DNA from: Methanogenium organophilum
GTDB lineage: Archaea; Halobacteriota; Methanomicrobia; Methanomicrobiales; Methanomicrobiaceae
Reading direction: 5' to 3'
Assembly (NCBI RefSeq): GCF_026684035.1
Contig: NZ_CP113361.1
Span: forward strand, 744,001 to 808,000
DNA length: 64,000 bases
Shown: one piece after another, positions 54,119-64,000 of the stretch
How positions within the stretch are numbered: the stretch's first letter is position 1
How the letters are laid out: every line of letters begins with the position of its first letter
Program-made: the position numbers and the translations under genes
The notes under the pieces: generated by a model
What the model saw: the letters and a program-made list of their open reading frames with translations, nothing else
Databases searched by the model: none
What the model was told of the DNA's origin: nothing

Positions 54119-54270
54119 AGGCAGTTCATGCGATGGGACATTTGAATTGAATGTGAGGCACAGACCAGCCCAACAGGTAATTCGGCACATAAAAATTCCG
54201 CCAAATTCACCCCCCTGCAAAAGAGAAATAAACACATCAGATACCATATATCTAATAAACGAGGATGAAC

Positions 54271-55380
54271 ATGGAGAATTCTCATGAGTCTTCTGACCGG
54301 ACAGAACGGACAGATACAACCGCATCCCTCCACACACCCGGGTGGAACAAAGAACAGGAAGAGGCATTCACCCGCTACACCGGCCCCTATCTCGCGGGCA
54401 GGGTCACGTCACGCCACAAGACGGCCTTTGACGTGCTCCTCCCCCAGGGAGAGACTGGCCGCGTGGGGGCATCAGGTGCCCTCCGGCGCCTCGGAAAGAT
54501 ACCTGCGGTAGGCGACTTCGTGGTAGTCCTCGACCAGCCGGATTCCGGCACCCGGATGATCGTCGACATCCTTCCCCGGCACGGTACCCTCTCCCGCGGC
54601 GCACCGGGTGAGGGCGGGGGCTCCCAGGTGATCGCTGCAAACCTCGATACGGTCTTCATCGTCACCGCGGCAGGCGGTGACTTCAATATCAGACGGCTGG
54701 AACGCTATCTTGCGGTCGTGCACGCATCCGGTGCCCGGCCGGTCATCGTCATCAACAAAGCGGACCTCACAGAGGATACGGACGCACTCGTCGAAGAGAC
54801 CGTCGCCATCGCCGGGGATACACCGGTCGTTGCAATCAGTGCCCGTGAAGGGGGTGGCATTGAAGAACTCAGCCCATTCCTCCCTGCAGGCACCACCGTC
54901 GCCCTCGTCGGCTCATCCGGGGTCGGCAAGTCCACCCTCATCAACACACTTCTCACGACCTCTGTGCAGGAGACACGGGACGTGCGGGACTATGACGAAC
55001 GGGGGCGCCACACCACCACTGTCCGCCAGCTCTTCTCTCTTCCCGGCGGGGCAATGGTCATTGACAACCCGGGTGTCCGTGAAATCCAGCTCGGGAATGC
55101 CGCCGCAGGACTGGAAGAGACCTTCGCGGACATCGCTGAATTTGCCGCGGACTGCCGCTACCGCGACTGCCGGCATGACGGGGAGCCCGGTTGTGCCGTG
55201 CAGGAAGCGGCGGATGCGGGGCTTCTTTCTGAGGCGCGTCTTCTCTCCTACCGCCGGCTCATGAAGGAGGCAGGGTTTCAGGCGGAGAAAAATGATATTG
55301 GTCTCAAACGGCTTGAGAAGAAGAAATACAAGTGGATTGGAAAAGCCGCAAAGGATCTGAACAGAGAGAAGGGCAGATAG
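54271..55380 (+). CDS. rsgA: Ribosome small-subunit-dependent GTPase A
   Basis: 369 residues. Circularly permuted GTPase: the G4 motif INKADLTED (about residues 165-175) precedes G1 GSSGVGKSTLINTLL (about 215), and G3 is DNPGVRE. A N-terminal OB-fold lies at about 45-100. The C-terminal zinc motif ends DCRYRDCRHDGEPGC. In bacteria it checks 30S maturation; archaeal copies are less usual and may be transferred. The ATG at 54271 has GAGG six bases upstream; the ATG two codons earlier lies inside the spacer. Confidence 0.93.
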   Translation: MENSHESSDRTERTDTTASLHTPGWNKEQEEAFTRYTGPYLAGRVTSRHKTAFDVLLPQGETGRVGASGALRRLGKIPAVGDFVVVLDQPDSGTRMIVDILPRHGTLSRGAPGEGGGSQVIAANLDTVFIVTAAGGDFNIRRLERYLAVVHASGARPVIVINKADLTEDTDALVEETVAIAGDTPVVAISAREGGGIEELSPFLPAGTTVALVGSSGVGKSTLINTLLTTSVQETRDVRDYDERGRHTTTVRQLFSLPGGAMVIDNPGVREIQLGNAAAGLEETFADIAEFAADCRYRDCRHDGEPGCAVQEAADAGLLSEARLLSYRRLMKEAGFQAEKNDIGLKRLEKKKYKWIGKAAKDLNREKGR

Positions 55381-58184: not shown

Positions 58185-59525
58185 TTACTGTTTCAAAGGC
58201 TCTTCCAGAAGAAACCTCTGCATCGCATCCGCAAGGGCACGGATATCCTCCGGCGTGTGAGCATCGGTGCAGAACGGAATGGTAACGATCATCTTACCAC
58301 GATAGGTGGAGACGTAGACACCGATCCCCGGCGGGTATGCTTCCCGGGTGGTAAGGTATGCTGTTGTGATCTCCAGTGGCATGTCATCCATCCCATGCCG
58401 GAACGCTGCTGACACCGCGGGTATTTCCCCCACATTGCTTACAAACGGGTTCTTCTTCCCGGTGAGACGGTATTCCTCTGCAAGGCCGTCCATAAAGGCC
58501 TTCACCGCACCGGTACCGCCGGCGTAGAGGCGCTCATAGAACACGGTTGACCCCAGGCCAAATCTACCGTTCTTCAACTCCCGCATCGCCTCAGAAACAG
58601 CGGTCAGAGCGCTACCCATTTCTCCGCAGCAGGCGGGAGAAAGGGAAAGGGTATAGGCGACCGAGAGGTTGCAGATACTGCGGGACAGTGCATCGGGGAG
58701 ATACCGGCGCAGGTCCATTGCCCCGAGAACCCCAAGAGAGTTCGACTCTGCATACCTCTTATCACAGACCTGTATGAGAGCGCAGAAATAAGCAGCCAGA
58801 ATCCGGTCATTGAGGGTAACGCCCGATTCCTTCCCGGCAGCCCTCAGGGAAGTAACGGTATCTGCTCCGATTGCAAACAACTCCCAGACGACCTTCCCGC
58901 ACGGACGATCCCGGTACGGAAACGACCAGTCTTCTGTACACGCCGATTCACGCTCACAGATGGGGTCGAGTTCTTCAGCGGAGAAACCGGAAAGAATGGC
59001 GTCAGTACCGCGGTATTCCCACGAAGGGCCCTGAAAGACAGGCGGCTTTCCCGAACATATCCGCCGGTAGGCATCGGCACAGAGAGCGGCAGCCTGAAAG
59101 AGACCGTTCGCGTCCATCGCCCCGTGATGGGCAGATATGATGAGAACATCCCCTTCCTCTCCGGTACTCCGGCAGAGGCGCACGTCCATCTGGGGGCCGG
59201 TGAACGGATCAATTGATACAAGCGGCAGGAAATTCGGATCTATTGGCCCTTCTATCTTATGCACCGAGAACGCAGGTTTATCACCCATCCCGGACTGCCA
59301 GTAGCCCCGGTCATCTTCCTCACCATAGTGTGACGCAAGGATGGGGGCCATCGTGCCTGCTGCTGCGACCGCGGCCTCCAGAGCGCATACATCAAAAGCA
59401 CCGTCTGCCTGCATCACAAGGTGGAGCGTCGGATCATAAATCGTAGAAAAATGGACATTTGCAACATCAAACGCCGAAGCCGGATGTTTCCCGGAATGGC
59501 GGGACGGAGAATTACTCATATTCAC
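58185..59525 (-). CDS. Condensation-domain/acyltransferase-like protein, paralogue 2
   Basis: 446 residues, the same length as the paralogue at 13682-15022. It shares the order FD-(F/A)NV-F---YDPT-HLV, the active-site HHGAMDANG at about residue 132, GVTLNDRILAAYFCALI, LRRYLPDALSRSICNLSVAY and the end G-YVSTYRGKMIV. The HHxxxDxxG is kept but the fifth position differs. Stand-alone CoA-acyltransferase-fold enzyme, with membrane lipid or alcohol acylation a possibility. No partner gene is adjacent. The start at 59525 (MNMSNSPSRH) could also be two codons downstream. Confidence 0.7.
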   Translation of the reverse strand: MNMSNSPSRHSGKHPASAFDVANVHFSTIYDPTLHLVMQADGAFDVCALEAAVAAAGTMAPILASHYGEEDDRGYWQSGMGDKPAFSVHKIEGPIDPNFLPLVSIDPFTGPQMDVRLCRSTGEEGDVLIISAHHGAMDANGLFQAAALCADAYRRICSGKPPVFQGPSWEYRGTDAILSGFSAEELDPICERESACTEDWSFPYRDRPCGKVVWELFAIGADTVTSLRAAGKESGVTLNDRILAAYFCALIQVCDKRYAESNSLGVLGAMDLRRYLPDALSRSICNLSVAYTLSLSPACCGEMGSALTAVSEAMRELKNGRFGLGSTVFYERLYAGGTGAVKAFMDGLAEEYRLTGKKNPFVSNVGEIPAVSAAFRHGMDDMPLEITTAYLTTREAYPPGIGVYVSTYRGKMIVTIPFCTDAHTPEDIRALADAMQRFLLEEPLKQ

Positions 59526-59610: not shown

Positions 59611-60159
59611 TCAGATAAGCATGAGACAGAGCAGGCAGACCACCGGGGGTATGACCAGGTTGTCCTCAATGGGTGAGACCAGTTCTGCAATGCCTGCGAC
59701 AACGGCCGCCGCAGCAGCAGGAAGAGGAGGCAGGAGAAGTGCGAGCGGGATTAATGCCGCAATGATTCCACCTGCCGTGCCCTCCCAGGACTTTCCGTTG
59801 AATATACGGTGCCGCCCGAAATGCAGTCCCGCAATCGTGCTGACTGAATCAAGAACCGCAAGGGTGAGCACCCCAGCCACCACATAGTCCAGCGGGAAGA
59901 AGATCAAACAGAATAACGCAGAGAGGACAAAACAGACCGCACCATATCCGGGCATCCTTCCGGTGCGTTCAAGATTCTCCACCATCGATGATGCAATAGG
60001 AACCGTATAACCACGGTCCACCAGGTCAATGAGGACAAACCCGCCAAAGAGACCCAGGGCAAGTACCATGATGGCATACTCCCTGCCAAGGGCGGCAATC
60101 GCAAGAGCGATTCCAATGCCAAACGCCAGATGCACCAGCTGACGGCCGTCTTCATTCAT
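59611..60159 (-). CDS. Dolichol-kinase/phosphatidate-cytidylyltransferase-like membrane protein
   Basis: About 182 residues from the ATG at 60159 (MNEDGRQLVHLAFGIGIALA); longer readings lack similarity. Four to five membrane helices. The cytoplasmic motif GRHRIFNGKSWEGTAGG is the CTP-binding loop shared by dolichol kinase, phytol kinase and DGK1 proteins. It likely phosphorylates a prenol or diacylglycerol-like lipid with CTP. Methanogens use such enzymes in archaeal lipid salvage or polyprenol phosphate recycling, so the role is inferred. Confidence 0.75.
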   Translation of the reverse strand: MNEDGRQLVHLAFGIGIALAIAALGREYAIMVLALGLFGGFVLIDLVDRGYTVPIASSMVENLERTGRMPGYGAVCFVLSALFCLIFFPLDYVVAGVLTLAVLDSVSTIAGLHFGRHRIFNGKSWEGTAGGIIAALIPLALLLPPLPAAAAAVVAGIAELVSPIEDNLVIPPVVCLLCLMLI

Positions 60160-60310
60160 TACCCGATATTTGTGACGGGGGCGGATAAATGCGCCGGAAT
60201 TTTTCCGCAGAACGCAGCAGAACAGGTATACAGGAATCAAATCCGAAAATATTCAGACCAAAACCCTGAATAAATCTGATAAAAAAATACTAACGCAGGA
60301 AGAGGGACAG

Positions 60311-61176: not shown

Positions 61177-62295
61177 TCAGCAGTCGTTTTTCCCTGCGTT
61201 TATGACAGACTCAATGAGCCAGAGGACACCCTCTGTCCCAATGAGCGGACGGTGACAGAGCATCGAATGTTTGCGTATGGGAATCGTTGTCTGCACTAAG
61301 GGCACATCTGGTGCGAGGGTCTTTTCATACCGTGACCCGATGATCAGATCAGGCTCGCCATCTGCAATCATCTGTTTTACCGTCCCCAGGTCGGGTGCCC
61401 AGGTACACACAGAGGCCTCAGGAGGCCGGTTGCGGGCGCCTGCGCTGCATATTTCAGCTTCCAGAAAGGTTGTGAGCAGGTCTGCTGCCATATCCATGTA
61501 ACCGGCAATCCCAAAGAGGGCCACCCGTGGTGGATCGTTGACGCGGAGATACCGGTCACATGCCTTGATCACCAGCTCTTCAGTCTCTTCGCAGATATCC
61601 ATGACAGAAGCACAGTCCGCGTCCGGGAAGGTCTCCTGAAGGGCAGAAAACGCTGACTCAATGGCATCCAGTCCGCACAGTGACCCAACAGACCTCCCGA
61701 TACCGGATGCCACATCCGGAAGGGCAGTCACCGTCACCATCGCCGGATTCAGAGCCGAGGAGAGCGTATCATCACAGTATTTCGCCGCAACCGGGATGCC
61801 TGCAGCGGCAAGCAGGCGTTCTGCTTCCATCCGGTTACCGGCGGCGAAGGGATCGGTTGAGATGAGCCCGTCAATATTCACCCCGTCACGCGCCGGGTCG
61901 GTCTCTGTGGGGAAAGCGGCGAGGGATAGCCGGTACCCGTCCATCATATCCCCACAATAGCCAGGTGCATCGATAATCAGTGCGTCTGATCCGGCACAGT
62001 ATGGCACAAGATCCTCACCAATGGTTGCCGGCACACAGGAATTGATAACAACAATCCTCTCACTGATGGGCAGGAGCGCTTCTGCCACCTCCTGCAGACG
62101 GTCCCCGGTGCCAAAGATCACCTCGTCTTCAACGAGATAGGTACAGTTCACGGGGTCAGGAATGATGGAATCAGCATAGAAATAGCAGCCTGACGCGCCG
62201 TGGATAATAACTCCTGCCCCCTCCAGACCTGCCATTGCTGCGGCGGCACCGACCATCGCACAGGGCCAGAGTGGATTGGTGCATAGCTTAGCCAT
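61177..62295 (-). CDS. Nitrogenase component-1-like protein, second subunit (NifK-like)
   Basis: 372 residues from an ATG overlapping the upstream gene by 8 bases; a longer frame upstream is an antisense artefact. It keeps the three cysteines at P-cluster positions: C12 (NPLWPCAMVG), C37 (IHGASGC) and C87 (INSCVPATIGED). The nitrogenase pattern DEVIFGTGDRLQEVAEALL is also present. It is far shorter than NifK (about 520). No obvious cofactor ligand His/Cys pair is seen. Together with its 5' neighbour it would form a heteromeric reductase fed by the NifH-like protein. Substrate unknown. Confidence 0.75.
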   Translation of the reverse strand: MAKLCTNPLWPCAMVGAAAAMAGLEGAGVIIHGASGCYFYADSIIPDPVNCTYLVEDEVIFGTGDRLQEVAEALLPISERIVVINSCVPATIGEDLVPYCAGSDALIIDAPGYCGDMMDGYRLSLAAFPTETDPARDGVNIDGLISTDPFAAGNRMEAERLLAAAGIPVAAKYCDDTLSSALNPAMVTVTALPDVASGIGRSVGSLCGLDAIESAFSALQETFPDADCASVMDICEETEELVIKACDRYLRVNDPPRVALFGIAGYMDMAADLLTTFLEAEICSAGARNRPPEASVCTWAPDLGTVKQMIADGEPDLIIGSRYEKTLAPDVPLVQTTIPIRKHSMLCHRPLIGTEGVLWLIESVINAGKNDC

Positions 62296-63331
62296 TGATA
62301 AACCTCCGCCACTGCCGGAGCATCCGCCGCAGCCCAAGTGTGCCCACCGGCATGCAGAAGGGTATAGGAATAACAGTGCCCTCCGGTGCAACCTTGACAC
62401 CAACGGCATCTGCAACCTCAGTAAACATTTCCATCCCCGCGGACTGGAAGCCAAATGAGTCAAAGGTCACATACGCACCGGATAAATCAGAAAATTCATC
62501 GGTGAGTGCCGCCTGCTGCTCCTCTTCTGCACGAACAGCGTCTGTGAAGTCCCTTCCGGTGAGACGGCCGGTCTCCCGGATGAACGCAAGTGTTGCAGAG
62601 AGACCGACCGGGAACTCCGGAATAGAGGGGATACCGGTGCAGGCATCGAAATGCCGTCCCAGGATACCGTTCGTGTCCTCCCGAAAGAGGTTCAGACCCG
62701 CATCCCCGAACCGCCCGATATTCTCTACGGTGATATCACGCACATACCGTATATTCACGTCCAGGTCCAGCATACCGAGTATTCGGGATACCTCCTGAAA
62801 ATTGTCGTCCACCTCAAACTCCAGATTCTTTTCACCGATAATATTCACTTTATCCGGGTCGCGTTTACCGGGCCGGATGAATGACGAGAGGGCGGTGAGC
62901 GTACTGGTATACCCATCGTTGAAAGTGCCTCCGAGAAAGCCGGAGCTTGGCACATAAATGACCGGGCAGTCCCATTGCCGACTGCAGATGCCTGCCACAT
63001 CGTCCCCGATTGTCTCGGAGACACAGGTGCTTGCGACCACGACTGCAGCCGGGTCATCCGCACATACTGCCGTCAGGGCATCATGGAGGGCGTCCTCTCC
63101 TCCGAAGATTACTTCATCCTCACCAAGACCGCTGGAGACAATCTCCGGGATGCGGAACACATCATGCTCTGCAAGAGTGGTGTACAAAAGGGAGGTATTG
63201 ATATGAGTACATCCGTCCGGGCCATGGATCAGGGTCACGGCATCGGTGAGAAAAGCACTCACTGAGAGGACACCCATGACCGTGCATCCTTCATAGCGTG
63301 ATGTACGACCGTGCAAGTTCTTCGAGTTCAT
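62288..63331 (-). CDS. Nitrogenase component-1-like protein, first subunit (NifD-like)
   Basis: 347 residues. The ATG at 63331 overlaps the H-like gene by 41 bases. It is preferred because the first cluster cysteine, C16 in [10 protein letters not shown], comes before the next ATG (63277). The other cysteines are C41 (IHGPDGC) and C102 ([11 protein letters not shown]). [20 protein letters not shown] matches NifD/E. The C-terminal half ([24 protein letters not shown]) resembles the third Rossmann domain. Only distantly similar to its downstream partner, so the pair is a true hetero-pair and not a recent duplication. Confidence 0.78.
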
Positions 63332-64000
63332 GCATCTCGAGTGGGGTGGGGATGGTAAGGTTCGTATTTTCCATAATCGTCCGGGCCAGGTTTCGGTAGA
63401 CTTCTGCCTGTTCGGATTCCGGTGCGTATTCAATGACCGTGCGCTGATTCACCTCTGCAACCTGAACGATGTTGGCACGGGGAATGTAGGCAACAAGACG
63501 GGAATTTACGCGTTCGGCGAATTCACGCACCAGTGCCTCTTCGCCAGGGATGTTCTTTGCATTGCAGATAACGCCTGCAAGGGAACAGACACTGCGGGTG
63601 CGGCGGGAGAGACGGGCAATTGCCTTGCAGATGTTGTTTGCCGCATAGAGTGACATGAACTCGCCGGAAGTGACGAGATAAATTTCCTGCGCATACCCGT
63701 CACGCATCGGCATCGCAAACCCGCCACAGACTACATCACCGAGGACGTCGTAGACAATGACATCGCCATAAAGGGCTTCCAGTCGCTGGAGCAGCTGGAA
63801 TGTGGCAATGATACCACGGCCCGCACAGCCGATACCGGGTTCCGGACCCCCTGCCTCAACACACCGGATACCCCCATACCCGGTGAACACCGCGTCAGGG
63901 ACCCCGACATTGGCATCACCATGTTCACGGACAAGATCCAGGACGGTAGGAATCCACTCCCCCTGCATCAGCATCCGCGTGCTGTCATGCTTTGGGTCAC
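63291..64000 (-). CDS. NifH-like iron protein (5' end outside window)
   Basis: The N-terminal P-loop is cut off by the window edge. The visible part starts [13 protein letters not shown], the switch-region motif of NifH-type reductases. Cluster cysteines are present in [20 protein letters not shown] (the Cys97 region) and [17 protein letters not shown] (the Cys132 region), so the [4Fe-4S] ATPase is intact as far as seen. It donates electrons to the following D/K-like pair. It could equally serve a CfbD-type F430 reductase elsewhere in the genome. Confidence 0.9.

Follow-up and report, generated by a model that had tools for sequence, protein, structure and literature searches.

The nitrogenase superfamily contains few characterised members that do not fix N2, and each of these has come with a new low-potential chemistry (chlorophyll, F430, C-S cleavage and isethionate). 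Two of them, DPOR and CfbD, have a site for a tetrapyrrole and no clusters other than [4Fe-4S]; large clusters of the nitrogenase type have been described, among these enzymes, for Mar alone (PMC12552129). In Isr, the D subunit retains one of three cluster cysteines (PMC11423573). Group IV proteins without an assignment, and H-D fusions, were already noted in a 2012 study, which also described unassigned sequences with 3+3 cysteines and without cofactor ligands (PMC3464626).

The locus described here, from Methanogenium organophilum, combines two short component-1 genes, D and K, with the reductase gene cfbC. Based on the results below, D and K very probably form a CfbC-coupled component 1 that is distinct from CfbD. 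Strong purifying selection acts on this pair, which is found almost throughout one methanogen order and is wired to the reductase of F430 synthesis instead of having one of its own. Literature searches outside the subscription journals returned no mention for CfbC together with Methanomicrobiales, although mention elsewhere is possible, and gave no example of a second component 1 encoded together with cfbC in one operon.

The cfbC-D-K locus and the cfb and nif genes of the genome

The window, meaning the whole stretch of DNA that was analysed, is 64,000 nucleotides in length and belongs to a genome consisting of a single contig (C1) of 2,648,164 bases. The genes of the locus are as follows.

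61177-62295, minus strand: K, component-1 protein of the K type, 372 residues, ATG start (PF00148, 114.8 bits, whole length covered)
62288-63331, minus strand: D, component-1 protein of the D type, 347 residues, ATG start (PF00148, 190.6 bits, positions 1-260 of 399)
63291-64109, minus strand (63291-64000 in the window): H, or cfbC, 272 residues (PF00142, 357 bits); product a NifH-type ATP-dependent [4Fe-4S] reductase, on the basis of NF033200 (CfbC, 418.8 bits)

The first 109 bp of H, its 5' part, lie past the end of the window and reach C1:808109, and the complete gene was read from C1:800001-819999. The original prediction of a NifH-like gene followed in overlapping frames by two component-1 genes of 347 and 372 residues, each with three cluster cysteines, is borne out in full: the frames overlap by 41 bp (H/D) and 8 bp (D/K), the three products match PF00142, PF00148 and PF00148, both lengths are exact, and the cysteines are invariant in 56 D and 57 K orthologues from across the order. 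Comparison with four close orthologues gives dN/dS values of 0.03-0.09 for each of H, D and K, indicating that these are genes under purifying selection and not chance frames. An artefactual reading of the cluster is also excluded by the conservation of D, orthologues of which (at least 309 bits) occur in 81 of 83 Methanomicrobiales genomes sampled. The other genes close to the cluster look ordinary; named from sequence only, they encode a membrane protein resembling phosphatidate cytidylyltransferase or dolichol kinase (59611-60240), a condensation-domain-like protein (58185-59525) and an RsgA-like GTPase (54265-55380).

The whole genome was searched with the profiles PF00148 and PF00142. Matches to PF00148 are nifDKEN (C1:1034576-1040135), D, K and one gene at C1:2491380, which is CfbD (TIGR03282, 494.7 bits against a cut-off of 268.4). 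This gene is part of a cfbA-cfbE-cfbD-cfbB operon near C1:2489690-2493750, in which cfbA, cfbE and cfbB were named from sequence and from CbiX and CobB/CobQ-type domains. The PF00142 search finds only two NifH-type genes, the nifH of the nif cluster and H; the remaining matches are other P-loop ATPases with weak scores of at most 42 bits, and a second cfbC is absent. Furthermore, H scores above the cut-off of the curated CfbC model NF033200 (418.8 vs 402 bits).

F430 is indispensable for methanogenesis. In a census of 106 Methanomicrobiales genomes that are at least 95% complete, exactly one CfbD is present in every genome and a CfbC-type gene in 105, with one CfbC-type gene per genome, while 67 genomes have exactly one NifH-type gene (E <= 1e-40). 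Since F430 cannot be dispensed with, H must be the reductase for CfbD in the genomes with a single NifH-type gene. H is assigned, by model score and elimination, as the CfbC of F430 synthesis. In the H tree, H, Methanosarcinaceae CfbC and NifH are not separated from one another, and this counts against our explanation. The cluster had been proposed to be separate from CfbCD, and a separate cfbC/cfbD pair was accordingly sought in the genome: separateness holds for D and K, which are not CfbD, and the cfbD gene indeed lies elsewhere, but it does not hold for H, which is CfbC and has no second copy.

Phylogeny, fold and cluster ligands of D and K

Trees of 49-60 component-1 proteins, built without Isr sequences, resolve D, K and CfbD as three separate clades with support of about 100/100 each. 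Forcing D and K into one clade is rejected (p-AU 0.0017), and the position of the long CfbD branch relative to D or K is left undecided by the same test (p-AU 0.43 and 0.42); caution on this branch has been advised before (PMC12176620). Both D and K fall outside NifDK/NifEN, the Mar-like DK sequences and CfbD. With Bch sequences left out of the tree, the sister of D is the corresponding portion of archaeal NifH-D fusion proteins (96/95). For K, one tree suggests a position close to the K of the fusion operons (90/78), a weak grouping that dissolves when Bch sequences are left out and that counts against our explanation.

Model searches agree with the trees. D and K score 40.2 and 30.8 bits with the CfbD model TIGR03282 (cut-off 268.4), neither passes the BchN, BchB and BchZ models (the best for D being 71.3 bits to BchB, with a cut-off of 490), and neither clusters with MarD or MarK. 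The expectation that the two proteins would fit no well-known assignment is thereby upheld for NifDK/NifEN, Mar and CfbD, as D and K form fully supported clades of their own, on the D and K sides of the family respectively, and make up an uncharacterised pair; neither lies in the CfbD clade, and the genome has its own CfbD. Some Methanomicrobiales also carry Mar-like H-D-K sets (L213, G435:C1:1640500-1648500; L215, G017:C1:463500-472000), and the proteins of L215 score 240 and 295 bits against the chains of the solved methylthio-alkane reductase structure. A further locus (L216, G402:C52:1-9000) has a divergent H and two component-1 genes of about 427 and 448 codons on long branches.

AlphaFold models of D and K have mean pLDDT values of 89.8 and 93.0, and the predicted folds match NifEN, Mar, nitrogenase and DPOR chains. 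D has lost most of domain III and keeps its last segment, in line with a PF00148 alignment that extends only to position 260 of 399, and K is missing a segment of domain II. These losses account for the short lengths of the proteins, which are otherwise D-type and K-type subunits.

The invariant cysteines are C16, C41 and C103 in D (56 sequences) and C12, C37 and C87 in K (57 sequences), and in the alignments the two triplets coincide with the cysteines that hold the P-cluster in NifD and NifK. The FeMo-cofactor cysteine, which is Cys275 in NifD and has equivalents in NifE and Mar-like D, is absent in D, where the column contains a conserved R-[E/D]. Invariant arginines are also found in D (R183, R195, R217) and K (R66, R160, R288), and these would suit an anionic substrate.

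Distribution and genomic neighbourhood

D adjoins H in all 30 of the H loci inspected (within a 1.5 kb flank). No D orthologue beyond Methanomicrobiales was found in a 393-genome sample of the phylum, where the next-best matches reach at most 203 bits and are all fusion proteins. Among 84,980 named genomes scanned by pattern, the best 80 of 138 loci are from Methanomicrobiales, except for a few whose records are titled only Euryarchaeota; rarer distant members may exist. In Methanoculleus loci (e.g. L060, L070, L081 and L084), K is inverted and lies 3-5 kb from D, so that the operon is broken and both genes are kept.

D/K orthologues are missing in seven genomes that have CfbC and CfbD, six of them from one genus (g28, which we take to be Methanospirillum-like) and one from another (g20, genome G173). 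In four loci without D/K (L217-L220), cfbC keeps its usual surroundings: FprA and a PRK-like gene or TrkH precede it, and three of the four have, next after cfbC, the conserved 137-residue gene that elsewhere is found 3' of K. Because the CfbD proteins of the two genera cluster together (96/92), a single event is the simplest account of the absence, and it would be a loss provided that the family-level taxonomy holds. As these seven genomes keep cfbC and CfbD, D and K are not needed for F430 and are separable from its synthesis. The function of D/K is also directly testable, given that one lineage lacks them at the locus and that a gene deletion has been reported for Methanoculleus thermophilus, as cited in PMC9081873.

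Flanking genes are conserved across the order and include FprA-type, desulfoferrodoxin, PRK-like, TrkH and leuB/leuCD genes; those for FprA, desulfoferrodoxin and TrkH are upstream of cfbC in many genomes, including that of Methanogenium organophilum. They are uninformative on D/K because they are partly retained at cfbC where D/K are absent, and reading a function for D/K from FprA, the PRK-like gene and the other neighbours was rejected for this reason. No tetrapyrrole gene is directly beside D/K, which counts against our explanation; a cfb operon as close as about 10-18 kb to cfbC-D-K is confined to some of the genera in a single family (f3; 13 genomes, examples L221 and L222). In the loci inspected there is also no radical SAM B gene or sulfur gene next to D/K. 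A conserved protein of about 137 residues, starting with MLEKAGY or similar, is encoded after K, or after cfbC where D/K are missing, and the L220 copy, the only one scanned, matches no Pfam or NCBIfam family.

The neighbourhood of the sister fusions is more telling of a substrate. The NifH-D fusion proteins have about 730-807 residues. Of eight loci, six have transporter genes of the BtuF, FecCD/BtuC and BtuD types in front of the fusion gene; CbiK follows the fusion in three of the eight, and CobN as well in one. The fusion operons, and the copies of the short conserved gene, are listed here.

L212 (2814-6379), L214 (2460-5977), L256, L258, L260 and L261: NifH-D fusion plus K, in operon with transporter genes
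L257 and L259: NifH-D fusion plus K, without transporter genes
L218 (5809-6246), L219 (7218-7742), L220 (6102-6551) and L127 (12160-12726): gene for the conserved protein of about 137 residues

This context suggests that the fusion operons likely handle an imported corrinoid, haem or siderophore. It is a lead and not proof, since the transporter family carries siderophores besides corrinoids and haem.

Proposed function, alternatives and comparison with known systems

Taken together, these observations suggest a mechanism in which the CfbC encoded by the cfbC-D-K operon would serve two component-1 partners, the CfbD homodimer from the cfb operon and a putative D-K heterotetramer from this locus. 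CfbC would alternate between them in the manner of NifH, which serves both NifDK and NifEN and provides the precedent for one reductase working with two component-1 complexes. First, CfbC would dock on D-K, hydrolyse ATP and give single electrons to a bridging cluster at the D/K subunit interface, predicted to be held by three cysteines from each subunit. The electrons would then pass to an organic substrate sitting directly in the pocket; binding without a large cofactor is proposed because D has no ligand for a FeMo- or L-type cofactor. The 3+3 cysteine set is also compatible with a P-cluster as in nitrogenase and Mar, and this too is counted against our explanation.

The substrate would most likely be a tetrapyrrole (a hydrocorphin, corrinoid or haem relative), a choice that we favour slightly. 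Counted in its support are the BtuF/FecCD/BtuD-type, CbiK and CobN genes of the fusion loci, as well as the fact that the characterised members without large clusters, DPOR and CfbD, both act on tetrapyrroles (PMC12552129). The reading as a whole, an ATP-driven D-K reductase that shares CfbC and probably acts on a tetrapyrrole, is given an even chance. The more specific proposal that D-K is an order-specific enzyme making or recycling a nickel-hydrocorphin or corrinoid variant with CfbC electrons is tentative and rather unlikely. If a shared-CfbC reductase of this kind exists, one reductase would feed two branches of tetrapyrrole metabolism, and Methanomicrobiales would hold an F430-type or corrinoid-type compound that is missing from the Methanospirillum lineage. 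The suggestion of a separate, uncharacterised group IV reductase survives in part: the D/K pair is uncharacterised and outside the NifDK/NifEN, Mar-like and CfbD clades, but its operon includes the cfbC of F430 synthesis.

Among other explanations, D-K could be a NifEN-type scaffold or maturase, for example for the L-cluster-bearing MCR activation complex, with CfbC used as NifH is by NifEN. Both sequence and fold comparisons place NifEN chains among the top matches, and nitrogenase-like clusters occur in MCR activation (PMC12176620). However, D does not have the L-cluster cysteine of NifE, and MCR activation is general to methanogens whereas D/K are limited to a single order, not all members of which have them; this makes the role improbable. 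A role like that of Mar or Isr, in C-S reduction for sulfur scavenging, is quite improbable as well. The H-D-K layout is identical to that of Mar and Isr, which are the characterised enzymes of group IV that have both D and K (PMC12552129, PMC11423573), but D is without the Mar cofactor cysteine and has three cluster cysteines where IsrD has one, Mar-like sequences form no group with D or K, and neither a B gene nor a sulfur gene adjoins the pair. The shared operon with cfbC and the undecided placement of CfbD relative to D or K would fit extra or replacement CfbD subunits in F430 synthesis, but this is very improbable and is rejected as the main reading given the separate 100/100 clades, the rejection of a single D+K clade (p 0.0017), the true CfbD in 106 of 106 genomes and the lineages that retain cfbC and cfbD without D/K. 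Oxygen defence tied to the upstream FprA (flavodiiron type), desulfoferrodoxin and TrkH genes is barely credible, because FprA and its neighbours stay at cfbC where D/K are absent and this synteny therefore belongs to the cfbC locus.

A CfbC-coupled D-K reductase would resemble CfbCD in that H is its CfbC, the component-1 subunits are short and no large cofactor is expected; it differs in that CfbD is a homodimer encoded elsewhere, while D and K are two unlike subunits that are dispensable where CfbCD is kept. The NifH-D fusion plus K systems, a layout noted before (PMC3464626), contain the sister of D, likewise have no FeMo-cofactor cysteine and have H, D and K made together. In contrast to the present locus, H and D are fused, the fusion K has one of the three cluster cysteines, and transporter genes of the BtuF/FecCD/BtuD type belong to most of the operons and CbiK to some. 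DPOR (BchLNB/ChlLNB) also has two unlike component-1 subunits and no large cofactor ligand, and its fold is close to that predicted for D (best TMq 0.76, to 3aet_B), but DPOR works with a reductase of its own, BchL, and an aspartate serves as a ligand of its cluster (PMC3464626), whereas D/K have six cysteines. MarHDK and IsrHDK share the group IV H-D-K operon. MarD, however, binds [Fe8S9C] (PMC12552129) through the cysteine position absent in D, IsrD differs from D in its cysteine count (PMC11423573), and both systems work with a radical SAM B gene of the kind not seen beside D/K. The best profile match of D among solved structures is a NifE chain (E 1.2e-41), yet NifE has the cofactor cysteine missing in D, the NifEN subunits are longer and the genome has its own nifEN elsewhere. 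Finally, the three P-cluster cysteines per subunit of NifDK and NifEN are also present in D and K, and this full P-cluster ligand set in a pair without a cofactor ligand bears on the evolution of nitrogenase.
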